Below are positions 6,085-27,747 of a stretch of 33,999 nucleotides of DNA, piece after piece; the stretch's first letter is position 1; each line of letters begins with the position of its first letter. Both the position numbers and the translations under genes were made by a program. This DNA comes from a virus. Location of the stretch: the IMG/VR virus record IMGVR_UViG_3300024344_000066, positions 1 to 33,999 of that record; one strand, given 5' to 3'. The notes beneath the pieces are model-generated. The model had not been told where the DNA came from, searched no databases, and was given only the letters and a program-made list of their open reading frames with translations.

Positions 6085-8563
6085 TATTACTTGTCTTTTG
6101 TTTCATAGCCTCCCTAGTGTTTGCCATGTTCTCTTTTAGTAATGCCATTGCCTCTGTAGAGTCCTCTTTATTAACATCGGCTGCAACTTTCATCAAGTTA
6201 ATAGTTGTGTCTGCTTCTAATTTATCTCTTTCAATATCAATTTTTTCTGCATCAAATACCATGTCTTTTTGCATCTGCATTTGAGTTTCCATAGCTTTTA
6301 AGTCAATTTCTTGTTGTTTTAATTTAACAAGTGGATCTTGAGCTTCTCTGCTTATTCTAGATTCTTCATCAGATGCTAATTGTTTTGTCATCTCTGCTTC
6401 AATTTTTGCTTGATCAGAAGCTTGTTGATTTATTAATTGATCCATTTGTTGTTGCATCTGTTGCACTGCTTGTGGGTTTTGTTGTGCCTGTTGCATTGCT
6501 TGTTGTAACTCTTGAAACTGTGGTCCGTATTTTTCTTGCATTTGTTCACTTGCCATTAATGATATATGTTCTGATACGTGTGCCTGCAGCATTGCATATA
6601 ACTGCGGGTTAATTTGTACCATTCTTGTAAACATAAATTCTGCATGTGCAGATATATGTGACATGTGATCTTGCATAGGAAACGGTTTTGGTTCTTTGCC
6701 ACGCATTGCACCAGCGTTTTCCATTGCAGGTGACATAGGTTGTGGATTGCCTGGGTCAGGTAATAATAATGTTTCTACATTATCCACACCCATCGCCGCA
6801 TACATTCTTCTGTAAGCTTCACGTAAATTGTGTAATTGTGGTGCAGCATTAGCAAGTTGTAATTGTTGTTGTGCCAATGTAACACGTTGTGCCATAGAAA
6901 ATATGTTAGGGTCGGATACGGGTAGTATATCTACTCTGTCATCAAAATCTTGTTGTTTAATCATTTGGTTTCCACCTACAACCATGTAAGGATATTGCGG
7001 TGGTAAATAGATAGAGAATACTTTTGCTAATAGTTTAAATTCTATTTTTTGTGCATAGTGTAATCTTTTGTGTATAGCACTCATAACTTTTGTGCCACGC
7101 TCTATTAATGCTAATGTTGTGCCAACAGGGTTTTGTTCGTTGCCTTCGCCCATCTTCATGTCTGCTATTGCAGCAAATGATTTACCTGCATCAACAGCAA
7201 AACCTAATAATTGAAATAATACAGCTGATGGTTCTTTGTATGGAAGCATCATTAGTGATTCTTTTATTGATTGTCCTGTTACATCTACATCTCTAAACTC
7301 ACCCGGTTGTAAAGGTTCATCGTGGTCACGTATACGCATGCCACGCGCCTTGAAACCTGCTGGTAAGTTAGCAAGAGTACCTGCATCAATTAATTGTCGC
7401 AAAGCACTTGTTGCAGTTCTTGATAACCCACCAAGCATGTGGATAAGACCAAATCCATAAAAGCCTAATCCAGGGAGGAACTTATAGTGTACAAAATAAT
7501 GGTTCTTCATAAAGTTTGGATCACCTTCTTTGTAATTTCTTTTTATTGACAATATCTCTTGTGAGTATTGGTCAATAGAAACTATGTAAGGTAATTTAAC
7601 CCCAGACGTATCTTCAAATCCTGGTACGTCTGCATTTATATGCATCTCCAATATTGTATGTTCTTCATCGCTAGAGCCATAATTTTTTTCTGCTCCATCT
7701 AATTCATCTATCTTATCTGCAACGTCATCAGAATCAATTTGTCCAGTTGGTAATTCTATGTCACGGTAAAAACCTTGTAATTGTTGTTTACGTATATCGT
7801 TGCCACTTGTTTTTATAATGTGTGTAATTCTATCAGCTGATTCTAAATCAGTTGCCATGTAGTTTATAACAAGATCTTCACCTGCAACAAATTTTGCACA
7901 GGCACGTTTCATCAAACCATCATAGTAAACTTTTTTAAATGCAGAACCACACAACGGTAAATAAAACAATAACTGGTCCATGTCTGGATCGTATTCTTGC
8001 ATTACCTCTGTTATTTGGTAATTCATAAATTCTTGCACACGCTGTGCTTGTTCGTTTGTTTCAGGTGTTTCTACACCTACAACTTGAGTTCGTACGGGGC
8101 CGCTTGGGGGGAGAAGTTCCTTATACGCTTGGGCTTGAAACTGTGTAACAGATTCAGCGAGTAAGGGATGTACGACCCCGGACGCTCCTTCGAATGGTTG
8201 TGTGCGGTCTTCATATTTGAAGCCTAGCATATCAAGGCCTTTGATATAGGTATCTTCCCAATCTTTCCTTGAATCACGATCCGATTCGAATTCAGCTAGT
8301 AGATCACTTGCGAATCTACTTAATTCATTATCTTCTATATATTCTGCTAAATTAGCATCATGTGGTACTTGCGACAAATCTATTGGTGCGTTTGGATCTA
8401 AATTAATTTCTGCACTACCATCTTCTAGTAGTTCTACATCAGATTCAAAGTCAACACCTTTTTCAGGATTAATTTCTATTTCCTCACCAGTAGGTTCTAT
8501 TTCTAGTGCACCTGTAAGTGCTTCTAGTGCTTTATCTATATTGTTTTTATTATTATCAGCCAT
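6044..8563 (-). CDS. portal protein
   Basis: 839 aa. Residues 1-75 are acidic; the portal core begins near residue 85. The segment at ~123-160 (PFEGASGVVHPLLAESVTQF, then QAQAYKELLPPSGPVRTQ) is the hallmark of podovirus-type portals that form the dodecameric DNA gateway and bind TerL. The C-terminal third is very Gln/Met-rich (about 640-760) and helical, like the barrel extensions of large portals. It begins inside the stop of the 1367-aa gene (8-nt overlap ATGGCTGA) and lies upstream of scaffold, as expected for a head operon. Family assignment is confident. Confidence 0.9.
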   Translation of the reverse strand: MADNNKNNIDKALEALTGALEIEPTGEEIEINPEKGVDFESDVELLEDGSAEINLDPNAPIDLSQVPHDANLAEYIEDNELSRFASDLLAEFESDRDSRKDWEDTYIKGLDMLGFKYEDRTQPFEGASGVVHPLLAESVTQFQAQAYKELLPPSGPVRTQVVGVETPETNEQAQRVQEFMNYQITEVMQEYDPDMDQLLFYLPLCGSAFKKVYYDGLMKRACAKFVAGEDLVINYMATDLESADRITHIIKTSGNDIRKQQLQGFYRDIELPTGQIDSDDVADKIDELDGAEKNYGSSDEEHTILEMHINADVPGFEDTSGVKLPYIVSIDQYSQEILSIKRNYKEGDPNFMKNHYFVHYKFLPGLGFYGFGLIHMLGGLSRTATSALRQLIDAGTLANLPAGFKARGMRIRDHDEPLQPGEFRDVDVTGQSIKESLMMLPYKEPSAVLFQLLGFAVDAGKSFAAIADMKMGEGNEQNPVGTTLALIERGTKVMSAIHKRLHYAQKIEFKLLAKVFSIYLPPQYPYMVVGGNQMIKQQDFDDRVDILPVSDPNIFSMAQRVTLAQQQLQLANAAPQLHNLREAYRRMYAAMGVDNVETLLLPDPGNPQPMSPAMENAGAMRGKEPKPFPMQDHMSHISAHAEFMFTRMVQINPQLYAMLQAHVSEHISLMASEQMQEKYGPQFQELQQAMQQAQQNPQAVQQMQQQMDQLINQQASDQAKIEAEMTKQLASDEESRISREAQDPLVKLKQQEIDLKAMETQMQMQKDMVFDAEKIDIERDKLEADTTINLMKVAADVNKEDSTEAMALLKENMANTREAMKQKTSNNGNRTNKKTTDQA

Positions 8564-11500
8564 TTACAGCTATTCCCCCTCGTTTGTATGCGCCCAATCC
8601 TTTAGAAATTCTATCTATTGCTTGTGGATTATCCTTTATTAGCAACATTGGAACTTCATAAGCCCTATTGGAATCATCAACTATAACAGATTTCATAAAT
8701 TTTGCACCACTTTTTTTAGACACTTTTTTCATTGCCCCTTCTGCTATTGGTCCGTAAGCAGTTATGTTACCAATGTAATCTCTACTACCCACTGATGTGT
8801 TTCTATTTTTTATTGCTGGTGTTGATATGGATATGCCATCATACCCACCTTCTTGTGCTGTTTTAAGTGCATACTTCATAACAAACTCGTTATAATCTTC
8901 TGTTTTAGAATATGGTCCTTGAGGTATACCACTATTATCACCAGAACCAGCTGCTGCTCGTTTTTCAGCAATAATGTTTCTTATTTTTGCACGCTCTCTG
9001 TTTAATCTTGCTAATCGCACTTGTGTTTGTTTTGTTTGTGGCATTGATAATAAATCTTCTATCTTGGATTGTATTAACATCATTTGTTGTTCGTTTGCAT
9101 TATCTGTTTCTCTTACTAAATCACCACGATCTGCATATTTTGATTGTCTTAGATCATCTTGGTATGCACGTTGGTTTGTTTGTCCTGCTGCCTGTGCTTT
9201 TTTAACTCTTCTGCCTGCAGCGTTTATCGGTTGATGCATGTCAGATTGTATTTCTTCTATGTGTAATATTCTTCTGCCAAATTCATCTGTTCTATCAGAC
9301 GTACGCATGTGTACAAATGCATTTGCACGCTGTGAAGTATTTAACCCAAAATCATGTGCATAGGTGTATGTTGGTTCTGTATTACGCAATGATCCAGGTT
9401 TGTTATTGTACTTAAATAAAAACTCACGGTAGTTCGATCCGCCACCCATTGTTTGTTGTCCACGGTAAGTTGCCTCTCTTGCATACTCTTTAAATCCTCC
9501 AAGTCTTACACCAGTTGTTGATGCAATTTCTTGTAATGGTTGTTTTAATTCGTACGGAAACTTTTGTGGAAATCCTTCTGTAATAGAATTAGCAACACCA
9601 AAATTTTTTTGCACTAGATCTTCTATGGTTGCAATTTCTTTTAGTATTACATCCTTGTTATTGTTATTTACTGCTTCTTCTAATGAAGGTATTCTCATTT
9701 TCATACCACTTAAAACATTTTTTAATGGTCCAGGTCTGTATGCTTGTAAATCTGTTTGTCGGTAAAGTTTAGTAAGTGCTTTTGATTCTTTTACACCAGG
9801 TGAACCTAATGATATTACATCTATTTCAGGTGCAAGCTTTGTATCAAACTCTTCTATTATTTGTGCTTTTGATAATGTCTTATTTCCGTTTCTAGATAAG
9901 TGTGTCGATAACTGTGTATCATTTAATTCCATGTCCTTAATAGGATTGTGTTTTGCAAATGGTCGTTTTAGATATGCTAACCATTCTGCACCTTTTGCAG
10001 ATTCCATTGGTGCGTCTATAAGTTTCTCACGTGATGACCAAAACATTGCACCAGCTGTGTCATCTGCTTGTGGTTTTCTTGCTCCAACTTTGTACGTATT
10101 AGCTGATGGATCTTTTCGTAAAAAATCTCTAGCTGCTTTTTCTGTATCAAAATCTTTTATTGGTAAACCAGCTTCATCAAAAACTGTAAACGGTCTATCC
10201 GGGCGCATTGGTCCTTGCACCTTAGGTCCTGTTAATTTAGGAGAGTATTCTCTTAACTTGCCTATGACCTTTGGTGCTAGTTTCTTTACCAGTCCACCGC
10301 CGACAAAATTTTGTGGATTAGCTTTTATTTCTTTTACTGCATCACTAACTGTAAACTTGTTAGCCATGCCACCTTGGTTGTATGATTTATAAAATTTGTG
10401 TGCGCCATATTGATCTAAATAATTATAATCTACATTGCCAAAGTTTTTTTCGTAACCAGGTAGAGCAAAAAAATCTGCACCTCCTGTAAAGTCTTTTGCT
10501 TGCCCTGCAATAATTTGATCTGCATAATCAAGATATTGGTTATACAAATCTAAATCGTTATCTTTGTAATCAGAAAAAAATCTTGTTGTTTTATCACTGT
10601 ACGGAGAAAATTGTCCTTCACCAGATAATACACTAACAATAGGGCTAATATTTTTATTAGGGTTACCACCATACATATTTACATAATTAGGGTTTTGTGA
10701 ACGGTTAAAAATAACATGTCCAACAGCTTGGCCTCCTTGAAAATTTTTATCATCTTCAGCCATCATCATACGTGCCATTGCTTCTCTGTCATCCATTTGT
10801 CTTATTCTACTAAATCTAAGATCTGGTTTTTGTTTTGGTTCTATTTTATTTGTGTTTTGATAATCACGCATACTTGTACCTCCACGATAAAAACCGTGTA
10901 TGTTTCCACCTCTAAATTGTGATTCAAAATCCATTTCCATTCTTTCGTCTCTTAAATTTTTTAATCTTTTTTGTTCTTTAGCTATTTGTTTAGCTTTTGC
11001 TTTTGTGTTGAATATGTTACCAGATGGAGAAAAGGAATCAATAAAACTTTCGAATAGGTCTGAATAGTCACCGTCCTCAGGCAGTGAAGCAAAATCTTTC
11101 ATCTTTTCACTACCATCGCCACGCATAATGCCCATCTTTCTTTCGAACGCTTGCATCTGTGATGGTGTAGTTACATCCCAAGTAATTGGATCATCTTTTG
11201 CATAATCTTCTGGTGACGTCATGTAATAATTTTCATCAACTATTTCTACTTGTCCTGTTTTTTTATCTATGTAGATGTGTTGGTTATTAGCAAAGTCACT
11301 ACGAATATCAAACTCTATGTGTAGGTCACCGTTTTTTTCTTTTGTCATGTTAACAGGAACTTTGTAGCCATCTGAGTTTGTAATTTCAAATTCTTGTTTA
11401 CCACCTTTACTACCATAGTTTCTAATTCTAGTGCCATTTGCTAAAGTTCTTCCCATAGCACTTGGTCCACTTAATTGATCTAGTACACCCACCATTGATT

Positions 11501-12659
11501 TAATCCATGGCGGTGCACTTCTTGTTATTGTTTTTGTTGCAGCCTGGGCCGCTAGCGGCGCTAATCTACCCACAGGCATTGTTGCAGCCGCAGCTGTAGC
11601 ACCAGTTTGTTTAATAAATTTTCTTCGTGATGGATCAAACTTTGCACTGTCAATAATTTTTTGTAATCCTTTTTTAATTAGACCACCCTTAGAATAACCA
11701 TAATATTTTAATATTAAGTCATCCAACATGCCTTCGTAATTTTGTATAAAGTTTTCTTCAGGTTGTTGTAGTCTTGCACGGTCACGGTTTTGTTTTCGCA
11801 TAGAAAGAAATACGTTGCCTTTGTCAAAAGATTTCATTGGGTCGTCAGCCGCAGCTATTATGTGACTAAGTTCTAATAATTCATCATCACCAATTAAACC
11901 AAGTTCTTTTGCTTTACCTGTTTGTCTTCTATTAAACTTTGAACGTGTTGCTAAAAGATCAGCAAAAAAAGGTGCATCTGTTTCAGAAAATTTTTTTATT
12001 ACTTCATTTTGTGGTATTTTACGTGCTTTTGCTTGAGAAAGCATTCTACCTAAGTGTCGTGCCAAAGCAGCACCGGCATTTATATCTTTTGCTGGTACAC
12101 CTTCAAGTGATTTGTTAATTTTTGACATTGTGTCTCTAACTATTTCTGTACTGCCCTCATCTAATGCGTTTAATGCATCGCCATACTTTGTCATTAGTAT
12201 TGGTCTACCAAATTCATCTTTAAATTTTGTTCTAACACCATATCCAGTACCTGTGCCTAATCTCCCTTGCCTGTAAGGACCTAAATAATACCCAGGATCA
12301 ACACCCATTGCTCTTGATTGTTCGTCAGTTAAATAACGAAGTTCATCGTCAGACAACTCATCAAGTCTTCTTGTCATTTCAATATTCTTAGGAAGTTTTT
12401 TTCTTTTTGTAGGTTTTGTTAAAGGTTTAGTATCTATATCGGCAATACGTGCTTCTTCTATTTGACGTGGCACTAATACATGTTTAGATTTTCTTGTGTC
12501 CGGGTCAAATCTTTTTACTCTTGTTAAATCTTTAGGTTGATATTTTTTACCTTCGTATTCATAGTAATCTAAAACTTTTTTAGGCTTAGGCGTGTAGCCT
12601 TTGGTAAGACCTTTTCTAATTACTTCTTTAAATACAGGAACAGCAGCTTTTAAAACCAT
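8556..12659 (-). CDS. 1367-aa composite virion protein with SleB-type cell-wall hydrolase domain
   Basis: The largest gene here. Residues 1-320 are helical and basic; 323-331 read SKGGLIKKG; 344-374 look like an internal twin-arginine signal (SRRKFIKQTGATAAAAT followed by an Ala-rich stretch). Residues ~620-760 match the SleB/CwlJ (Hydrolase_2) pattern: EAMARMMMAED, QGGQAVGHVIFNR, FTGGADFFA, AHKFYK. A second block begins at 787 (GGGLVKKLAPKVIG). Residues ~1080-1330 carry a module with LHIEEIQSDMHQ and KYALKTAQEGGYDGISI, which I recall from large polyvalent phage proteins. It ends KRGGIAVNG. Likely an ejected or tail-associated lysin-bearing protein that opens peptidoglycan at entry. It is TAATG-coupled upstream. 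The hydrolase call is fairly firm; other parts are unassigned. Confidence 0.8.
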   Translation of the reverse strand: MVLKAAVPVFKEVIRKGLTKGYTPKPKKVLDYYEYEGKKYQPKDLTRVKRFDPDTRKSKHVLVPRQIEEARIADIDTKPLTKPTKRKKLPKNIEMTRRLDELSDDELRYLTDEQSRAMGVDPGYYLGPYRQGRLGTGTGYGVRTKFKDEFGRPILMTKYGDALNALDEGSTEIVRDTMSKINKSLEGVPAKDINAGAALARHLGRMLSQAKARKIPQNEVIKKFSETDAPFFADLLATRSKFNRRQTGKAKELGLIGDDELLELSHIIAAADDPMKSFDKGNVFLSMRKQNRDRARLQQPEENFIQNYEGMLDDLILKYYGYSKGGLIKKGLQKIIDSAKFDPSRRKFIKQTGATAAAATMPVGRLAPLAAQAATKTITRSAPPWIKSMVGVLDQLSGPSAMGRTLANGTRIRNYGSKGGKQEFEITNSDGYKVPVNMTKEKNGDLHIEFDIRSDFANNQHIYIDKKTGQVEIVDENYYMTSPEDYAKDDPITWDVTTPSQMQAFERKMGIMRGDGSEKMKDFASLPEDGDYSDLFESFIDSFSPSGNIFNTKAKAKQIAKEQKRLKNLRDERMEMDFESQFRGGNIHGFYRGGTSMRDYQNTNKIEPKQKPDLRFSRIRQMDDREAMARMMMAEDDKNFQGGQAVGHVIFNRSQNPNYVNMYGGNPNKNISPIVSVLSGEGQFSPYSDKTTRFFSDYKDNDLDLYNQYLDYADQIIAGQAKDFTGGADFFALPGYEKNFGNVDYNYLDQYGAHKFYKSYNQGGMANKFTVSDAVKEIKANPQNFVGGGLVKKLAPKVIGKLREYSPKLTGPKVQGPMRPDRPFTVFDEAGLPIKDFDTEKAARDFLRKDPSANTYKVGARKPQADDTAGAMFWSSREKLIDAPMESAKGAEWLAYLKRPFAKHNPIKDMELNDTQLSTHLSRNGNKTLSKAQIIEEFDTKLAPEIDVISLGSPGVKESKALTKLYRQTDLQAYRPGPLKNVLSGMKMRIPSLEEAVNNNNKDVILKEIATIEDLVQKNFGVANSITEGFPQKFPYELKQPLQEIASTTGVRLGGFKEYAREATYRGQQTMGGGSNYREFLFKYNNKPGSLRNTEPTYTYAHDFGLNTSQRANAFVHMRTSDRTDEFGRRILHIEEIQSDMHQPINAAGRRVKKAQAAGQTNQRAYQDDLRQSKYADRGDLVRETDNANEQQMMLIQSKIEDLLSMPQTKQTQVRLARLNRERAKIRNIIAEKRAAAGSGDNSGIPQGPYSKTEDYNEFVMKYALKTAQEGGYDGISISTPAIKNRNTSVGSRDYIGNITAYGPIAEGAMKKVSKKSGAKFMKSVIVDDSNRAYEVPMLLIKDNPQAIDRISKGLGAYKRGGIAVNG

Positions 12660-13657: not shown

Positions 13658-15108
13658 TAATAGTATTCTCTCCCTCCGACTTGTGTCGTTTTCTCGTCTT
13701 CGTAATCATCTTTTAAACCAACATAGTAACCTTGTCTATATTTCATTAAAGCTTGCGTGGTTGAATCCACGTAGTCATCGTTATCACCGAAAGGAAAAGC
13801 TGCGCACTCTTCTATTACTTCCTCGGCGAACTTTTTATTGGGCGCCCATATAGCTCCTGATTCAAACAGGGGAGCTACGCTGTTTACCCTAGAGTGTTTA
13901 TCATTTCCTCTTGAGGGTGTATAATTTATAACAGGTATTCCTGCCTTTTGCAACTCATGAGTTAAAGGTAAGCCAGATGCCTTTGCTTCTATCAAAATTG
14001 TCTCCGGTTCCCAGTATCTATATTCTTCTTGTGCGATTGATTTTAGTTCAGGAAAGTTCCAACGTCCTTTTTTTGCGTCCAGTAAAATTAATGCTTGCGG
14101 ACCACCTTCTTCGGGCTCAAATACACCCCACGTTGTTATTGCCGAGTAATCGGCTGTCTCTTTTGCACTAAACGCCGTATCGTAGCTCTGTATAATGTAT
14201 TTTAGGTGCGGAATTGTATCTTCTTCCCATGTTTGCCACCATTCACGTTTTATAAGTGCACCTTCCTCGGATGTAGGCTGCTGCATCCACTGTGCTTGCC
14301 ATTTTGACTCCGGAATAGATGCCTTGACACCTTGTAGACCTTTCATGGTCCAAAAATTACCCCACATGGGTTTTTCATTTATAATTGCAGGGAATTCGAC
14401 AACTTCCCATTGATCAGAATCCTCTGCCTTACCCTGGGCCTCGAGCAGCCGTCCTGTTAGGTCTTTTATTGACCATCTTGTCATAACGACAACGATTGAA
14501 CCACCAGGTTGTAGACGTTGACGCGGACCGGATGTATACCATTCGTAATGTGAGTCTAGAACGGCCGGCGAAAGCGCATCTTGCTCGGAATGAGGGTCGT
14601 CAATAATAAGTAAATCGGCACCACGACCTGTAATCGCACCACCGACACCTGCAGCGAAGTATTCACCGCCATGGTTTGACTCCCAACGGCCGGCGGCCTT
14701 TGAATCAGCTGCTAATCTGACTGTAGGGAAAACTGTTTCGTACTCTGGCGACTCTATAACGTTCTTGGCCTTCCGACCGAACCTAATTGCTAGTTCGCCT
14801 GTGTGTGTTGTTTGGATGAGCTTGGCCTTTGGATGGTTGCCCATGTAAAATGCAGGAAAAAGGTTAGATGCAAACTCCGATTTTGTATGTCGAGGTGGCA
14901 TATTAACAATAAGACGCTTTAATTCGCCTTTTGCAATACGGTTTAGCTTCTCTGCGTAGATACGATGGTGTTTTCCTTCTATAAAATCAGGCCAAACAGT
15001 CTTGACAAACGACAAAAAATCATTTTGTGATTTTTCTTGCTTGTCTAACAGCGCATTTTTAAGAATATACTTTAAAGTTTGAGTATCAAGCGTCTCTAAA
15101 TTGCTCAT
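13657..15108 (-). CDS. terL: terminase large subunit
   Basis: 483 aa packaging motor. The ATPase has a Walker A-like MPPRHTKSE at ~70-78 (Thr where many TerL have Gly), Walker B LLIIDDP at ~166-172 and the coupling motif VVVMTRWS at ~206-213. The nuclease domain begins with SYDTAFSAKETADYSA (Asp310), then ILIEAKASG (Glu374) and DDYVDST (Asp445/448), the RNase H-like acidic triad that cuts concatemers. Length is normal. The start overlaps the upstream stop as ATGA. TerS is 3.2 kb away rather than adjacent. Confidence 0.95.
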   Translation of the reverse strand: MSNLETLDTQTLKYILKNALLDKQEKSQNDFLSFVKTVWPDFIEGKHHRIYAEKLNRIAKGELKRLIVNMPPRHTKSEFASNLFPAFYMGNHPKAKLIQTTHTGELAIRFGRKAKNVIESPEYETVFPTVRLAADSKAAGRWESNHGGEYFAAGVGGAITGRGADLLIIDDPHSEQDALSPAVLDSHYEWYTSGPRQRLQPGGSIVVVMTRWSIKDLTGRLLEAQGKAEDSDQWEVVEFPAIINEKPMWGNFWTMKGLQGVKASIPESKWQAQWMQQPTSEEGALIKREWWQTWEEDTIPHLKYIIQSYDTAFSAKETADYSAITTWGVFEPEEGGPQALILLDAKKGRWNFPELKSIAQEEYRYWEPETILIEAKASGLPLTHELQKAGIPVINYTPSRGNDKHSRVNSVAPLFESGAIWAPNKKFAEEVIEECAAFPFGDNDDYVDSTTQALMKYRQGYYVGLKDDYEDEKTTQVGGREYY

Positions 15109-15743
15109 TTCTGCTCTTTAAACTCATAAAAGTAGTTTGTATCATCGCCTGCAGTCCATTTACTTATAGATTCTACGTTATATTCTATGGTTGACACCTT
15201 AAAATCAGGTTGTTTAGGCTCAGATGGTGTCAATGACTTGTCATAAAACAGTGTTCTGTTGTTTGGCTGTGCTGCAAAGTGGCCATTGTCCAATTCTATT
15301 ATGTTAAAAGATTTGTGTTCGGCTGGAACTTGTGAATAATTTATGTTTGGTAAGTTATGGTCTGCATGACAACTATCAATCGTAAACAAGTATTCACCTG
15401 AGTGCCATTTTTTTGATGGAGATAGATATTTTGCTCTAGGTGGCACTGTTATTTTTTCTATAACTGTGATGTGATAACTAAAAGAATCCCAAAGCTCTAG
15501 TTCTTCTAAAGGAAGATCATCTTTAATATCAGGGGAAGAAACAAAAGCACTAATAGGGAGCTTATCATATAAAGCAGCATATTCCGGCAGATACGTTTCA
15601 AAGTAAAGTGCTCGACCTTGTATTGACTTAACAGTAGCCCAAACACCTTCTACAAATTCTCCGTGCCCTTTTTGATGATCATACAAATACTGTTTCTTAA
15701 CATATACCTTTACTGGTGGAACGTTCGCAACTAAAAAAGCCAT
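15105..15743 (-). CDS. conserved 212-aa marine-phage protein, first gene of the late operon
   Basis: Starts MAFLVANVPPVKVYVKKQYL. An upstream in-frame ATG at 15842 would give 245 aa, but that 33-codon extension runs through a good promoter at 15772-15800, so I chose 15743, about 22 nt downstream of the predicted transcript start. The interior is beta-rich with many aromatics (GRALYFETYLPEYAALYDKL, then ELWDSFSYHITVIEK, then GEYLFTIDSCHADHN). I recall close relatives upstream of TerL in many uncultured marine phages, but know no function. No strong Shine-Dalgarno is present; the short leader is A/U-rich. Confidence 0.85.
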   Translation of the reverse strand: MAFLVANVPPVKVYVKKQYLYDHQKGHGEFVEGVWATVKSIQGRALYFETYLPEYAALYDKLPISAFVSSPDIKDDLPLEELELWDSFSYHITVIEKITVPPRAKYLSPSKKWHSGEYLFTIDSCHADHNLPNINYSQVPAEHKSFNIIELDNGHFAAQPNNRTLFYDKSLTPSEPKQPDFKVSTIEYNVESISKWTAGDDTNYFYEFKEQK

Positions 15744-15771
15744 ATAAAAACGATTTAATTTTTTAAAATTT

Positions 15772-15800
15772 TTTATAACGTTTTTTACGAAGATTGTCAC
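15772..15800 (-). promoter_or_regulatory. late-operon sigma70-like promoter
   Basis: On the minus strand GTGACA (15795-15800), 17-nt spacer, TATAAA (15772-15777): one mismatch to consensus in each box with ideal spacing. The predicted start is near 15765, 22 nt before the ATG at 15743. It heads the whole leftward structural operon. Confidence 0.7.
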
Positions 15801-15845
15801 TCTCAAACTTGCCTCTACATAATTCAAAGCATGCTTACGCAAAAA

Positions 15846-15881: not shown

Positions 15882-15901
15882 TTATCCACAGGTTATACAC
15901 A
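15882..15901 (+). promoter_or_regulatory. pair of DnaA boxes
   Basis: TTATCCACA (15882-15890) and TTATACACA (15893-15901), both exact matches to TTATNCACA, same strand, start-to-start 11 bp (about one helical turn). Adjacent same-face spacing suggests cooperative DnaA binding beside the late promoter. Confidence 0.7.
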
Positions 15902-15940: not shown

Positions 15941-16237
15941 CTAACCAGCTAAACCTAGTCGCTTTAACAAGTAGCCAACATCACCTTGCATATGATGTAG
16001 CAACTGCATACGATTGTCCTTATCTTCTGCAATCCATTCAACAATAGAATTGCATAGCACACCACTAATCAACTTCCAATCCAAGCTATCTTTACGAGGA
16101 ACAGATGAGATGATTGATTCAAGATCGCCAACACTAGCCTGATCTTTGGCATACTCAACTACTTCAGTAAGCACGGGTGTAATATCCACACCCTTTACTG
16201 ATTTTACTTTTACTACTTCTTTAGATTCATTAGTCAT
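15941..16237 (-). CDS. 98-aa protein, unknown function
   Basis: An acidic, mostly helical 98-aa protein (VLTEVVEYAKDQASVGDLES, then WKLISGVLCNSIVEWIAED, ending YLLKRLGLAG). A GGAG site lies 8 nt upstream of the ATG. It follows the 25-aa membrane-peptide gene by 16 nt in the same short operon as the gene at 16328. No domain recognised. It is the last gene before the DnaA-box hairpin and late promoter, so a role in early takeover or origin control is possible but unsupported. Confidence 0.75.
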   Translation of the reverse strand: MTNESKEVVKVKSVKGVDITPVLTEVVEYAKDQASVGDLESIISSVPRKDSLDWKLISGVLCNSIVEWIAEDKDNRMQLLHHMQGDVGYLLKRLGLAG

Positions 16238-16253
16238 TTCTAATTCTCCTTTG

Positions 16254-16331
16254 TTAACTAATTGATAATATAAAGCTATATCCTATAAACCACATAATAG
16301 ATACACCTATTATTAATGTTATGATATTCAT
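16254..16331 (-). CDS. 25-aa single-span membrane peptide
   Basis: A 25-residue hydrophobic peptide starting MNIITLIIGVSIMWFIGYSF, essentially one membrane span. The ATG overlaps the upstream stop (ATGA) so translation is probably coupled. It is too short for most gene callers. The sequence between the genes has no competing frame. One of several tiny membrane peptides in the early region. Confidence 0.6.
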   Translation of the reverse strand: MNIITLIIGVSIMWFIGYSFILSIS

Positions 16332-16594
16332 TGTGGATAACTCTTTCCACTAATCTCAAACACAGTATTAGGATTGACATTAGCCCAACGTTGAAACCCC
16401 TCTTTAGCTCTACTATTAATCTTAAATACTAATACATAGTTAGGGTGTTCAGTTACTCTCTTCTCTTGGGTAAATCTATATCCAAGTTTACCAACTACAC
16501 CTAGTTTGATGTGTCCTATCTGTCCATTGTTCTTACGCCACTTACAGCTAAAGAAACCACGTTTAACAATATCTTTAAATTCGTTCTTAGTCAT
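16328..16594 (-). CDS. small beta-rich protein, possibly SH3-barrel (DUF2693/WYL_2-like)
   Basis: 88 aa. FFSCKWRKNNGQIGHIKLGV, then PNYVLVFKINSRAKEGFQRW, then VNPNTVFEISGKSY gives a short all-beta pattern similar to what I recall of phage SH3-barrel proteins that contain a K-x-(D/N)-G turn followed by paired strands. Nucleic-acid binding would fit but is not shown. A perfect DnaA box overlaps its last codons. It is followed by two coupled or adjacent small genes. Confidence 0.7.
   Translation of the reverse strand: MTKNEFKDIVKRGFFSCKWRKNNGQIGHIKLGVVGKLGYRFTQEKRVTEHPNYVLVFKINSRAKEGFQRWANVNPNTVFEISGKSYPQ
16332..16340 (-). promoter_or_regulatory. DnaA box within 3' end of coding sequence
   Basis: TTATCCACA on the minus strand, an exact match. 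It encodes the Tyr-Pro-Gln end of the 88-aa protein, so it may be coincidence, but it lies in a cluster of five such boxes within 2 kb. Confidence 0.5.
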
Positions 16595-16651: not shown

Positions 16652-16765
16652 GATGACAAATTGTCGCACCCGGGCAGATAACCAGTTGCGTGATGGCAGA
16701 TGTGAATGGATGAAGTTCAGCATCTCAGCGGTCGCCCCGGTGCATAAACGTGGGAGCTTTAGCTA

Positions 16766-16915
16766 TTAGCTGTGTTGGTTGTTAGGGAGCTTGGGAGTTT
16801 TCTGATGGGGCGAAGGTAATGGCTCTTGATCAACCAGAGCGAAACCCTCGCCTAATCCATAGGACAGGTCTTTATGAGCACCCGTCACAGGAGTCCGCAA
16901 CAACTTAATGCGCAT
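16766..16915 (-). CDS. 49-aa small protein ending in a repeat-encoded TPKLP tail
   Basis: Begins MRIKLLRTPVTGAHKDLSYG, continues GLGEGFALVDQEPLPSPHQ and ends KTPKLPNNQHS. GGAGGG lies just before the ATG, and a leftward extended -10 promoter (16986-17014) starts transcription ~64 nt upstream. The last residues are encoded by copy A of the 15-bp repeat. Composition looks protein-like rather than random, but I recognise no family. An alternative is that this is a structured RNA; inverted arms such as GGCTCTT/AAGAGCC flank it. Confidence 0.5.
   Translation of the reverse strand: MRIKLLRTPVTGAHKDLSYGLGEGFALVDQEPLPSPHQKTPKLPNNQHS
16786..16800 (+). repeat. 15-bp dispersed repeat, copy A (variant)
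   Basis: GGAGCTTGGGAGTTT, one mismatch to the common form. On the minus strand it is inside the 3' end of the 49-aa gene and encodes TPKLP. Confidence 0.7.
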
Positions 16916-16970
16916 TACCCTCCCTAAATTTGTAAGGCAAGAGCCGAATAACTCCGTTTATCTTGCCTCA

Positions 16971-16980
16971 TAGTTAACTA
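16971..16980. promoter_or_regulatory. palindrome at predicted transcription start
   Basis: TAGTTAACTA is a perfect 10-bp palindrome that overlaps the predicted start (~16979) of the promoter at 16986-17014. This placement is typical of an operator. Confidence 0.4.
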
Positions 16981-16985
16981 TTCTT

Positions 16986-17014
16986 ATTATACCACACCAA
17001 GGTCGGTCGTCCAA
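16986..17014 (-). promoter_or_regulatory. extended -10 promoter
   Basis: Minus-strand TATAAT (16986-16991) preceded by TGG (extended -10 TGn), 17-nt spacer and a weak TTGGAC (17009-17014). It drives the 49-aa gene at 16915 and perhaps the following small operon. A DnaA box lies about 20 bp upstream of the -35. Confidence 0.65.
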
Positions 17015-17032
17015 GGACATTAATAAATATCT

Positions 17033-17041
17033 TGTGGATAA
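17033..17041 (-). promoter_or_regulatory. DnaA box upstream of promoter
   Basis: TTATCCACA on the minus strand, exact consensus, in non-coding DNA just upstream of the promoter at 16986-17014. Well placed for DnaA to act as regulator as well as initiator. Confidence 0.6.
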
Positions 17042-17108
17042 CCCAATTCCTATACTGTGCAGTACCAAACCATGTCTTTCTATTATAATATATCATAACT
17101 CAGCAGTT

Positions 17109-17155
17109 CCCCGGCGCGCCCGGTGTAGTTAGTGTACAACCAGCCAACATTATGC
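17109..17155. repeat. GC-rich block and AACCAGC/GCTGGTT inverted repeat
   Basis: A CCGGCGCGCCCGG block near 17111-17123 (contains the palindrome GGCGCGCC) is followed by AACCAGC and GCTGGTT arms. It is the GC element that follows repeat copy B in the leftward direction and precedes the next promoter. Confidence 0.5.
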
Positions 17156-17170
17156 TGGTTGGTTGTTCCA

Positions 17171-17185
17171 GGAGTTTGGAGTTTG
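17171..17185 (+). repeat. 15-bp dispersed repeat, copy B (variant)
   Basis: GGAGTTTGGAGTTTG: the same unit as the other copies but with one G missing in the centre. It lies 24 nt beyond the stop of the 48-aa ORF (leftward). Confidence 0.65.
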
Positions 17186-17255
17186 CAGCAGCTCCTGCTG
17201 CCTGGCAGCTACTGACCAGCAGTACCTGCATCTCCTGCTGCAGCTACGCAGCTGT
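17181..17255. repeat. cluster of short hairpins rich in CAG/CTG
   Basis: Successive inverted repeats include GCAGCAG-ctc-CTGCTGC (7-bp stem), CTGCC-t-GGCAG and CAGCT-acgc-AGCTG. They overlap the 3' half of the 48-aa ORF, so they could be either coding or structural. Confidence 0.45.
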
Positions 17256-17355
17256 TTAGTATATTAGTATGTACCATGCCAAAAGGCAGAAAACCGCCAA
17301 TTTTACAGGTATAAGTAACATTAGTCAGTCCATATTTACCTCTACTTTCTATCAT
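17209..17355 (-). CDS. 48-aa possible small protein (or transcript) behind a strong promoter
   Basis: Begins MIESRGKYGLTNVTYTCKIG, has GFLPFGMVHTNILNSC and an Ala/Gly-rich end. The promoter at 17365-17393 would start RNA near 17358, only about 3 nt before the ATG, so translation would be nearly leaderless. There is no Shine-Dalgarno. It could instead be a non-coding RNA, for example one acting at the origin. Included because of the promoter and its place in the repeated module; a coding role is uncertain. Confidence 0.35.
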   Translation of the reverse strand: MIESRGKYGLTNVTYTCKIGGFLPFGMVHTNILNSCVAAAGDAGTAGQ

Positions 17356-17364
17356 TCTACCATT

Positions 17365-17393
17365 AATATAGATCCACTTCAGGCGTATGTCAA
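17365..17393 (-). promoter_or_regulatory. near-consensus sigma70 promoter
   Basis: Minus-strand TTGACA (17388-17393), exactly 17-nt spacer, TATATT (17365-17370): a perfect -35 and one mismatch in the -10. It fires leftward into the 48-aa ORF and hairpin cluster. Confidence 0.75.
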
Positions 17394-17452
17394 GCCTCGC
17401 TTCAAAAAATAATGGCGGAAAACCACGGAAAAATTTTTCAGGTTAACGGGAT

Positions 17453-17460
17453 CGCGCCCG
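17453..17460. repeat. GCCCGGGC palindrome after repeat copy C
   Basis: A perfect 8-bp GC palindrome within GCGCCCGGGCTAC, about 53 bp to the left of repeat copy C and about 60 bp before the promoter at 17365-17393. Related CCCGGG elements occur near 15871, 16669 and 17951. Confidence 0.5.
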
Positions 17461-17512
17461 GGCTACAATGACACCATATCACCCCCACCTATAGGCGAGG
17501 GAGATATTCATC

Positions 17513-17527
17513 GGAGTTTGGGAGTTT
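17513..17527 (+). repeat. 15-bp dispersed repeat, copy C (perfect)
   Basis: GGAGTTTGGGAGTTT, then TGCC. It lies 9 nt beyond the stop of the 70-aa gene (leftward). Confidence 0.75.
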
Positions 17528-17535
17528 GCCTACTT

Positions 17536-17748
17536 TCAGTTGCTAAACACCTCGTACATCTTGTCCAATGCACTTCTGTTATCTGAATGTGCCTCATCGA
17601 CTCTATCAGCATTTCGCTTCATTACAGGAACAACACTATCATAGTGCTGTGATATCTTTCGCAAGGTATCGTTCTGTTCTTCTAATGATTCGTTGATTCT
17701 ATTTAACGCATCCACTATTGGATCGTATTTATCTTCTGGTAATACCAT
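17536..17748 (-). CDS. 70-aa coiled-coil protein behind a perfect promoter
   Basis: A 70-aa acidic helical protein (IVDALNRINESLEEQNDTLR, then KISQHYDSVVPVMKRNADRV) with heptad-like hydrophobic spacing, so probably an oligomeric coiled coil. AGGAG lies 6 nt before the ATG. It is alone in its transcription unit, 24 nt downstream of the start predicted from a consensus promoter whose spacer contains a DnaA box. It is probably strongly and early expressed. Function unknown; interference with a host complex would fit such a small, strongly expressed early product, but that is speculation. Confidence 0.75.
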   Translation of the reverse strand: MVLPEDKYDPIVDALNRINESLEEQNDTLRKISQHYDSVVPVMKRNADRVDEAHSDNRSALDKMYEVFSN

Positions 17749-17779
17749 AATAACTCCTTTGTTTCTAATTCTAAGTCCT

Positions 17780-17808
17780 ATTATAGCAAAAAGTTATTCA
17801 CATGTCAA
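17780..17808 (-). promoter_or_regulatory. perfect-consensus sigma70 promoter containing a DnaA box
   Basis: Minus-strand TTGACA (17803-17808), 17-nt spacer, TATAAT (17780-17785): every position matches consensus. The spacer contains TTATTCACA on the plus strand (17794-17802), an exact DnaA box. Predicted start near 17773, ATG at 17748. Confidence 0.85.
17794..17802 (+). promoter_or_regulatory. DnaA box in promoter spacer
   Basis: TTATTCACA, exact TTATNCACA, located between -35 and -10 of the promoter at 17780-17808. Bound DnaA would block RNA polymerase here. Confidence 0.65.
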
Positions 17809-17830
17809 TGGCAGAAGTTACCATCCTGAA

Positions 17831-17858
17831 GACCAGCGGGCGCAGCTGGGCCCTGGTC
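17831..17858. repeat. GC-rich hairpin upstream of perfect promoter
   Basis: GACCAG-c-GGG pairs with CCCTGGTC: about nine base pairs with one bulged C, loop of about ten. It lies just past the 3' end of the nuclease gene and upstream of the -35 box, as the GC element that follows repeat copy D. No poly-U follows, so not a classical terminator. Confidence 0.5.
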
Positions 17859-17877
17859 GACTGCAGGAGAACATCAA

Positions 17878-18330
17878 TTATAGTTTTTGGCTGTTTTGCT
17901 GGAGTTTGGGAGTTTGCGAGCTTTGGATTACCTGAATTAGCGCAGCGGGCGCCCGGGCAACTGGACCATGCCACAAAGACCTTGGCCCTTGGGTGTACTT
18001 TTGGCGGAGTTTGGGAGTTTCGGTGCCGTGAAAAACGTTTACGGTGCGTGCGTCTGGGTCGTATACCATAATAAATACAGGTGCACCAAGCATACTATGT
18101 TTGACATGCCATGCATTTTGTAGAGGTGAAATTAGTACCGTTTCGGTACCATTTTTATTACGTTTAAGCACCTTCAATTCAAGCGTAAAAAATCCTGTGT
18201 CTTTATGAAATACTACGCAATCCGGGAAACCAGGCGTAACGTAGGACTCAATACGTGACACAACAAAATTACCATCGTTTAAACATGTCTTTAAACTCTT
18301 CCAAAAGTTTGTTTCCGTCTTTGCGGTCAT
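17878..18330 (-). CDS. VRR-NUC-like PD-(D/E)xK nuclease with repeat-encoded tail
   Basis: 150 aa. The N-terminal ~100 residues hold a compact nuclease fold: TKTETNFWKSLKTCL (Glu6), then GFPDCVVF (Asp37) and FFTLELKVLK (Glu51-x-Lys53), the G-x-PD...ExK pattern of VRR-NUC/Holliday-junction-resolvase-like enzymes, followed by LQNAWHVKHSMLGAPVFIMV. This suggests cutting of branched or replicating DNA. The last ~45 residues are low-complexity and run through two copies of the 15-bp repeat, giving TPKLRQ and TPKLQQ. The catalytic core is complete without this tail, so it looks like an extension added by the repeats. Confidence 0.8.
   Translation of the reverse strand: MTAKTETNFWKSLKTCLNDGNFVVSRIESYVTPGFPDCVVFHKDTGFFTLELKVLKRNKNGTETVLISPLQNAWHVKHSMLGAPVFIMVYDPDARTVNVFHGTETPKLRQKYTQGPRSLWHGPVARAPAALIQVIQSSQTPKLQQNSQKL
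17901..17915 (+). repeat. 15-bp dispersed repeat, copy D (perfect)
   Basis: GGAGTTTGGGAGTTT followed by GCG. It is inside the 3' end of the nuclease gene and encodes QTPKLQ on the minus strand. Confidence 0.75.
17942..17957. repeat. overlapping GC palindromes after repeat copy E
   Basis: GCGGGCGCCCGGGC contains GGGCGCCC and GCCCGGGC, two overlapping 8-bp palindromes, within the nuclease gene tail. They lie about 50-60 bp to the left of repeat copy E, as in the other modules. Confidence 0.5.
18006..18020 (+). repeat. 15-bp dispersed repeat, copy E (perfect)
   Basis: GGAGTTTGGGAGTTT followed by CGG. It marks the boundary between the nuclease core and its odd tail and encodes ETPKLR on the minus strand. 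Confidence 0.75.
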
Positions 18331-26676: not shown

Positions 26677-27747
26677 CTATACTCCACATAATCCTTCACA
26701 TTCATCGGCAAATTCCTCATCGAATGTTTCGCCAAATAGTGAAGCTTGTTTTTTTGGTTCCAAGAAATCTATATCACGAAGTGGCTTTGCTGATTTGTGC
26801 AAAAACAATTCCGATGTTGTATTCTTTAAACCATGTCTAATTTTATCATCAACCTCACATGCATCTGCAAAATCTTCTGGATAATTCTTTTGCATGTTTT
26901 TCCATTGATCGTTATGATGATAAGGGCACCCTATGCACGATGATTTACCCGGCATGGGGTGTTTCTTAATATCACGATACCACTGAAGACAATCCATACG
27001 AGACATCTTCATTTCTATTAAAGGCCAACGTGATGTTAACCATGGTAGCCTAGCGTTTTTCATACGCATGGCTTCGTCGGTAGATATGCCAATCCACTGT
27101 TCAACCAATTGTCCTTTCTTGACACGGTGTCGTGGTTTAATGCCTAACAACTCTCTAATCTTTTTTTGAATAGGGATAACTTTATAATCATGTGTACACT
27201 GACGATAAAGCATCCCTACTTTTCCACCAGGACGAGCAGCAAACAACGGTGGGTTTGGTACACGTCCAGCAAACGATTTTTCCTCTTCTCTAGACCCTGG
27301 TTCTGGGTTCGCTGCTTTGATAAGATCCTCACGGATATTACCTCTTTCCACAGTGATCAGCGGACAAATTGTTATTGCTTTCTTTAAATATTCTACATGT
27401 TCATATACAAACTTAGGTTCCCACCCAGTGTCTGCAAATATCATGTAGTCTGGTTTATGTTTTGTTAATCCTTCTTGCGCCATGAGTGCCAGACAGGAAG
27501 ACTGTACCCCTGCCCCGAGTGATAATATGCGCATCGTCGGTTCGCGTTTGTTTCCTTCTTCGTCAAAGTATTCCGGCTCTTTTGTTGCTGCAACTGCTGC
27601 CATATTGTTGAGCTTTTTACGATCAATTTTCGTAGACATTTGTTCAAGTACTTTTCTTCTTTCAAATTCCATCTGCTCCGGATTAATAGCAAAGCTATTC
27701 TTTTTATTCTCTAATCTTTTTTTCCTTGTTTCTTTATTTATGCTCAC
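26677..27747 (-). CDS. PP-loop ATPase of the PAPS reductase/adenylyltransferase-like family
   Basis: 356 aa, GTG start in a GTGA overlap with PolA, GGGGAG site. Residues 1-70 are a charged extension. The PP-loop is SLGAGVQSS (76-84), followed by MIFADTGWEPK (102-112). Cysteines at 184 (YRQCTHDYK), 271/274 (SSCIGCPYHH) and 350/354 (ECEGLCGV) could bind an Fe-S cluster, as in TtcA or DndC relatives. Such phage proteins use ATP to activate a substrate for reduction or sulfur insertion; their real substrate is unknown. Assimilatory PAPS reduction is one possibility, DNA or tRNA modification another. The SufE-like gene 0.6 kb downstream supports a sulfur role. Confidence 0.85.
   Translation of the reverse strand: MSINKETRKKRLENKKNSFAINPEQMEFERRKVLEQMSTKIDRKKLNNMAAVAATKEPEYFDEEGNKREPTMRILSLGAGVQSSCLALMAQEGLTKHKPDYMIFADTGWEPKFVYEHVEYLKKAITICPLITVERGNIREDLIKAANPEPGSREEEKSFAGRVPNPPLFAARPGGKVGMLYRQCTHDYKVIPIQKKIRELLGIKPRHRVKKGQLVEQWIGISTDEAMRMKNARLPWLTSRWPLIEMKMSRMDCLQWYRDIKKHPMPGKSSCIGCPYHHNDQWKNMQKNYPEDFADACEVDDKIRHGLKNTTSELFLHKSAKPLRDIDFLEPKKQASLFGETFDEEFADECEGLCGV

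Follow-up and report, generated by a model that had tools for sequence, protein, structure and literature searches.

An array of predicted transcription units with a shared 3'-end repeat, carrying tiny-protein and structured RNA payloads, between terS and terL of uncultured marine phages

The window, that is, the whole stretch of DNA analysed here, is a virus record of 33,999 bases without end repeats (IMG/VR record IMGVR_UViG_3300024344_000066). It carries genes for terminase, portal, DNA polymerase, helicase and primase. Its TerL shares 58–67% identity with those of the Pelagibacter phages HTVC027P and HTVC023P, phage 023Pt_psg01 and phage DSL-LC04. Within the 1367-aa protein encoded at 8556–12659, PF07486 (E 1.9e-7) marks a cell wall hydrolase domain, and PHROG matches at 15105–15842 and 26677–27747 point to a ferredoxin family and a PAPS reductase family, respectively.

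Near its middle the window holds an array of short repeats, GC palindromes, promoters and small payloads (Table 1). The stretches that bear this array are mostly uncultured marine phages, distant allies of the HTVC027P/HTVC023P pelagiphages, and the bins containing related terL contigs are MAGs of SAR86, Pelagibacter and other proteobacteria. The gene order p92-p131-TerS-Nuc-repeats-p70-repeats-ncRNA-p98/p88-TerL is kept in the family, with p98/p88 varying in orientation; terS and the nuclease gene lie on one side of the array and terL on the other. The number and kind of payloads differ among relatives, while the boundaries are conserved. Because many loci are related to one another, the locus counts given below are not counts of independent events, and those derived from IMG/VR apply among the matches listed. 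The terS–terL regions of the isolates HTVC027P, HTVC023P, 023Pt_psg01 and DSL-LC04 lack the repeat, and similarity searches across 50,697 phage records returned no relatives of the array.

Table 1. Features of the array in the window, listed in the sense direction
Feature	Position	Strand	Remarks
Repeat copy, sense AAACTCCCAAACTCC	18006..18020	-	Exact match; nuclease gene of relatives ends at or in this copy
GC palindrome GCCCGGGC	17951..17958	.	48 nt past repeat, within short inter-repeat spacer
Repeat copy	17901..17915	-	Exact match
Promoter TTGACA-17-TATAAT, p70 gene	17780..17808	-	Predicted; 12/12 consensus
DnaA-type box TGTGAATAA	17794-17802		In spacer of p70 promoter
Gene p70, 70 aa	17536..17748	-	126 loci
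Repeat copy	17513..17527	-	Exact match; 8 nt past p70 stop
GC palindrome GCCCGGGC	17456..17463	.	
Promoter TTGACA-17-TATATT	17365..17393	-	Predicted; 11/12 consensus
48-aa ORF	17209..17355	-	Relatives share the N-terminal part but have other C-termini
Repeat copy, 14-mer variant AAACTCCAAACTCC	17171..17184	-	
GC block CCGGGCGCGCCGGGG	17109..17123	.	
DnaA-type box TTATCCACA	17033..17041	-	~19 nt upstream of -35
Promoter TTGGAC-17-TATAAT, ncRNA	16986..17014	-	Predicted
Structured ncRNA, predicted, ~179 nt	16801..16979	-	From inferred start to repeat
Hairpin A (GGCAAGA-UAAA-CGGA-GUUA-UUCG-GC-UCUUGCC)	16933..16970	-	Covariation; covariance-model match E 8.7e-14
Repeat copy, one mismatch (AAACTCCCAAGCTCC)	16786..16800	-	Abuts 3' end of ncRNA
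GC block GCACCGGGGCGACC	16730..16743	.	43 nt past repeat

The repeat consists of two AAACTCC units with a period of 8 nt. The exact 15-mer GGAGTTTGGGAGTTT occurs three times in the window, at 17513, 17901 and 18006. The copy at 16786 has a single mismatch to it, and the copy at 17171 lacks one G, which makes it a 14-mer (GGAGTTTGGAGTTT). These are the five positions, occurring nowhere else in the window, that a first-pass annotation made from the letters of the window had listed, and they stand as three exact copies and two variants. A scan of the window with up to three mismatches gave five matches, all in the array region and all on the plus strand, against a chance mean of 0.98, and none of 100 shuffles reached five; beyond the named copies, the sole match at this threshold overlaps the one at 17901. 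The repeats are confined to 16786–18020 in a single orientation. In IMG/VR the exact 15-mer was found in at least 120 stretches with at least 294 copies, and its orientation is constant within each contig among the matches listed. Single-copy motif matches in GC-rich contigs (e.g. L045, L051, L080) were taken as likely chance. A literature search found the 15-mer in no paper.

Inter-repeat segments fall into two classes, short ones of 58–90 bp and long ones mostly of 240–600 bp. The order in the long units (n = 351) is repeat, GC palindrome, often a DnaA-type box, strong sigma-70 promoter and payload. The first GC element begins 40–60 nt past the repeat in 318 of the 351, and in the window GC palindromes or blocks lie ~43–50 nt past each copy in the sense direction. 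The -35 element is usually found 80–160 nt into the long segment. Promoters, which are predictions throughout, reach a score of 10.2 or more in 228 of the 351, against 32 when the sequences are reversed, and in 98 long units the distance from the end of TTATCCACA to the -35 element is 10–20 nt. Because the spacing is this strict across 351 long segments, the element order read in the first-pass annotation is accurate, with its three minus-strand promoters and a GC palindrome at a set distance. The short segments hold no promoter; a GC palindrome is present in 82% of them and a DnaA-type box in 48%. In the window, DnaA-type boxes are clustered around the array (17033–17041, 17794–17802, 16332–16340 and 15882–15901).

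Each promoter had been proposed to drive a small gene of 70, 48 or 49 aa. This is borne out for p70, is uncertain for the 48-aa ORF and does not hold for the 49-aa ORF, in whose place we find a structured RNA. p70 was recovered at 126 loci, always sense, with a median identity of 53% among the matches listed, and had no Pfam or PHROG match; it is a real gene. Whether the 48-aa ORF is a gene is uncertain because only its N-terminal part is kept in relatives. The 49-aa ORF (16766–16915) was rejected: relatives sharing its DNA have no conserved frame, their versions being 28, 36 and 73 aa long and unrelated at the C-terminus, and the ORF overlaps the structured RNA. Like p70, the nuclease gene is always sense. 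The p98–p88 pair (15941–16594 and homologous loci) is inverted versus terL in about two thirds of the loci, with p98 antisense at 90 loci and sense at 39.

The third payload is, by fold prediction and covariation, a previously undescribed structured non-coding RNA. The fold predicted for the window has an MFE of -63.1 kcal/mol and a z of -3.43, and its 5' end is hairpin A. The folding z has a median of -3.0 over 74 non-redundant RNAs and of -0.9 over terS control segments. In an ungapped alignment of hairpin A that involved no fitting to structure, 32 distinct sequences have 97.8% of cells paired, and 9 of the 13 pairs changed on both sides. Covariation reaches 0.501 versus 0.162 when shuffled (0/500) and at most 0.118 when slid. 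A second element, hairpin D, is 100% paired with a covariation of 0.619 versus 0.147 shuffled. Rfam gave no ncRNA match at the gathering threshold, and sub-threshold matches were at chance level only. Hairpin A was absent from the full records of HTVC027P, HTVC023P, 023Pt_psg01 and DSL-LC04. With its usual stem, it was not found in GTDB contigs, nor was hairpin A found in four MAGs with related terL contigs, where its absence carries little weight.

The predicted RNAs are strings of stem-loops in which the loops are conserved and the stems are rewritten with strong covariation. Several unrelated loops share the stem frame GAGGG...CCCUC. Loops D and J are found on several stems and in 5' as well as 3' positions. 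Hairpin A also occurs within leaders, shortly before start codons, in phages that lack the repeat. Such other lineages without AAACTCC are L129, L135, L136, L141, L142, L144, L160, L170, L204 and L206; their copies lie mostly a few dozen nucleotides before the start codon and have different covarying stems, the leaders including those of L129, L136, L141, L142, L144 and L170. Five further contigs with the hairpin A core and no matching stem (L128, L131, L137, L138 and L211) were excluded as chance or coding. Hairpin D was likewise seen in leaders before start codons of unrelated phages (L216, L218, L220, L221 and L222); in L216 and L220–L222 it is part of a larger conserved folded region.

Covariation by itself cannot separate RNA from single-stranded DNA, and the hairpins might in principle be ssDNA structures. 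We consider this very improbable. A strong promoter lies directly upstream of hairpin A, and AAACTCC downstream, in 99 of 126 loci (RNA span 70–410 nt), and hairpins A and D also occur in 5' leaders of other phages, shortly before start codons. On the sense strand G-U pairs outnumber A-C mismatches 21 to 5, a bias indicating that this strand is the one that folds.

Since the loops are conserved while the stems are free, we infer that each loop may bind a protein, an RNA or a small molecule. We propose more tentatively that a library of short stem-loops, each having a conserved loop on a freely rewritten stem, is spread across marine phages and combined variously into stand-alone ncRNAs ended by AAACTCC and into the 5' leaders of unrelated phages. 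If true, this library would correspond, at the RNA level, to exchangeable protein-binding domains and might be directed against host factors. Phage-encoded folded RNAs include GOLLD, boxB, put and RNase III sites, some of them directly upstream of genes. The array ncRNA differs from these in its interchangeable loops on rewritable stems and in having no Rfam match.

The repeat is locked to the 3' ends of the payloads. From the p70 stop to the repeat the median distance is 5 nt, with at most 10 nt in 75 of 124 loci. For the nuclease the median is -25 nt (150 loci), the stop lying within the repeat or just past it. Intrinsic terminators are near-absent on the sense units (p70, 1/123; nuclease, 11/149; after hairpin A, 8/113), but follow antisense p98 in 81 of 90 loci (5 when shuffled), and none of these 90 antisense 3' ends has AAACTCC. 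Sense p98 has an intrinsic terminator in 23 of 39 loci. On the simplest reading, the repeat and palindrome together would stand in for these terminators in the sense direction. The first-pass annotation had suggested an insulating terminator for each unit, composed of the repeat as a C-rich Rho loading site and of a GC hairpin. The position of the repeat and the missing intrinsic terminators agree with the first part of this idea, whereas the role given to the GC palindrome does not hold and the Rho detail is at most a possibility. The palindrome is not an intrinsic terminator because the T-run is absent: the T fraction is only 0.24 in the next 10 nt, and a GC stem followed by a T-run was seen in 7 of the 351 segments. 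The array resembles Rho-dependent terminators in its short C-rich, G-poor RNA element at 3' ends without an intrinsic terminator. However, the C-rich, G-poor bubble covers just the repeat and ~20 nt, while a classical Rho-dependent terminator has a long unstructured RNA of this composition; a Rho-loading site here is at most a candidate.

We favour the repeat as a factor-dependent 3'-end or termination element between independently transcribed units. "Terminator" here names a position and a missing alternative rather than a measured activity, and the transcript ends are inferred from sequence. On balance we think it probable that the locus is an array of independent units in which the repeat is the sense 3'-end or termination signal and the ncRNA acts via its loops. 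In the layout observed, a unit has its own predicted sigma-70 promoter, a strong one that frequently follows closely on a DnaA-type box. Its payload is either the tiny protein p70 or an ncRNA folded into interchangeable stem-loops, and it ends with the two AAACTCC, followed 40–60 nt on by the GC palindrome. The repeat would work in the sense direction, as an RNA signal or as a protein-bound DNA site, and termination there would leave each unit transcribed on its own. In this direction the repeat and palindrome would take over the task of intrinsic terminators, and the ncRNA would work via its conserved loops, each a putative binding site. Against this reading, read-through from some units into the next may occur, and the promoter-less short spacers between two repeats are superfluous in a simple model of one terminator per unit. 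The repeat might also be a DNA site that was passed on together with a one-way array.

One form of protein-bound site would be that of the stoperators, which are asymmetric, 13 bp long, placed in short gaps between genes and oriented with transcription (PMC9283540). In cluster A mycobacteriophages (L5, TipsytheTRex) these sites are likewise short, asymmetric, located at gene ends or between genes and locked in orientation to transcription (PMC9283540). A protein on the asymmetric DNA repeat might similarly halt RNA polymerase one way, which would fit a site of fixed orientation relative to transcription at unit ends. We regard this as rather unlikely. Stoperators, to which the phage immunity repressor binds, are spread genome-wide, whereas the copies here form one cluster of ~1.2 kb in the window, and a 69.8-kb record has all four of its copies inside 1.1 kb. 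The repeat also differs in its two 8-nt direct units and in its pairing with a GC palindrome 40–60 nt on, and the window, although it is a genome fragment, yielded no repressor or lysogeny gene.

The repeats and DnaA-type boxes could also form an origin or an array of regulator-binding sites (iterons), lying at gene ends merely for want of other non-coding room. DnaA-type boxes, counted as TTATCCACA and its complement, are enriched 5–6 times near the repeats. Short spacers hold tandem TGTGGATAACCTGTGGATAA together with GC palindromes, and the isolate relatives have different short-period repeats in the same terS–terL region. We nevertheless judge an iteron array unlikely: the repeats lie a few nucleotides from a stop codon or from the final hairpin of the RNA and run into the C-terminal end of the nuclease gene, two distinct kinds of payload lie between them, the copies follow the units and do not form one compact cluster, and no initiator protein was identified.

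Payloads that vary in number and kind within kept boundaries, and RNA modules that are shuffled, would suit a repeat and GC palindrome acting as recombination joints for cassette exchange between phages. This is improbable and was rejected, as homology-block ends show no enrichment at repeats (0.174 vs 0.151, sd 0.026) or at GC elements (0.111 vs 0.108).

The PeSL elements of T4-type phages, reportedly described by Arbiol et al. in 2010, are said to be mobile regulatory cassettes in which a promoter and a structured element delimit small genes in a plastic region. The array has a promoter and a GC palindrome at fixed spacing and may be comparable to such cassettes. It differs in that a 3'-end sequence repeat with a loop-less GC palindrome is what stays constant, that its payloads include an ncRNA and that the element shows no enrichment of homology breakpoints.

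Marine viromes commonly contain the array, and its structured RNA combines strong covariation with absence from Rfam. Should the repeat prove to be a termination element, it would be a compact alternative to intrinsic terminators that works in one direction only and within one locus. Should the loops bind host factors, the shuffled modules would offer a direct route to their partners, as every loop lends itself to testing on its own. A transcriptome study of HTVC027P makes no mention of promoters or non-coding RNA.

Other short-period or GC-rich repeats were observed in the terS–terL region of relatives, namely GCTTGNN, GGGCCCACCC, CCGTGGG and CCTTGCGN (L124, 4933–6180; L125, 6398–8836; L127, 8419–8693; L228, 3533–4463). 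In L229, a phage contig from a betaproteobacterial MAG, two families of near-perfect palindromic repeats lie upstream of terL, one at 329–352, 682–705 and 2198–2221 and the other at 850–896, 1255–1301 and 1438–1484.
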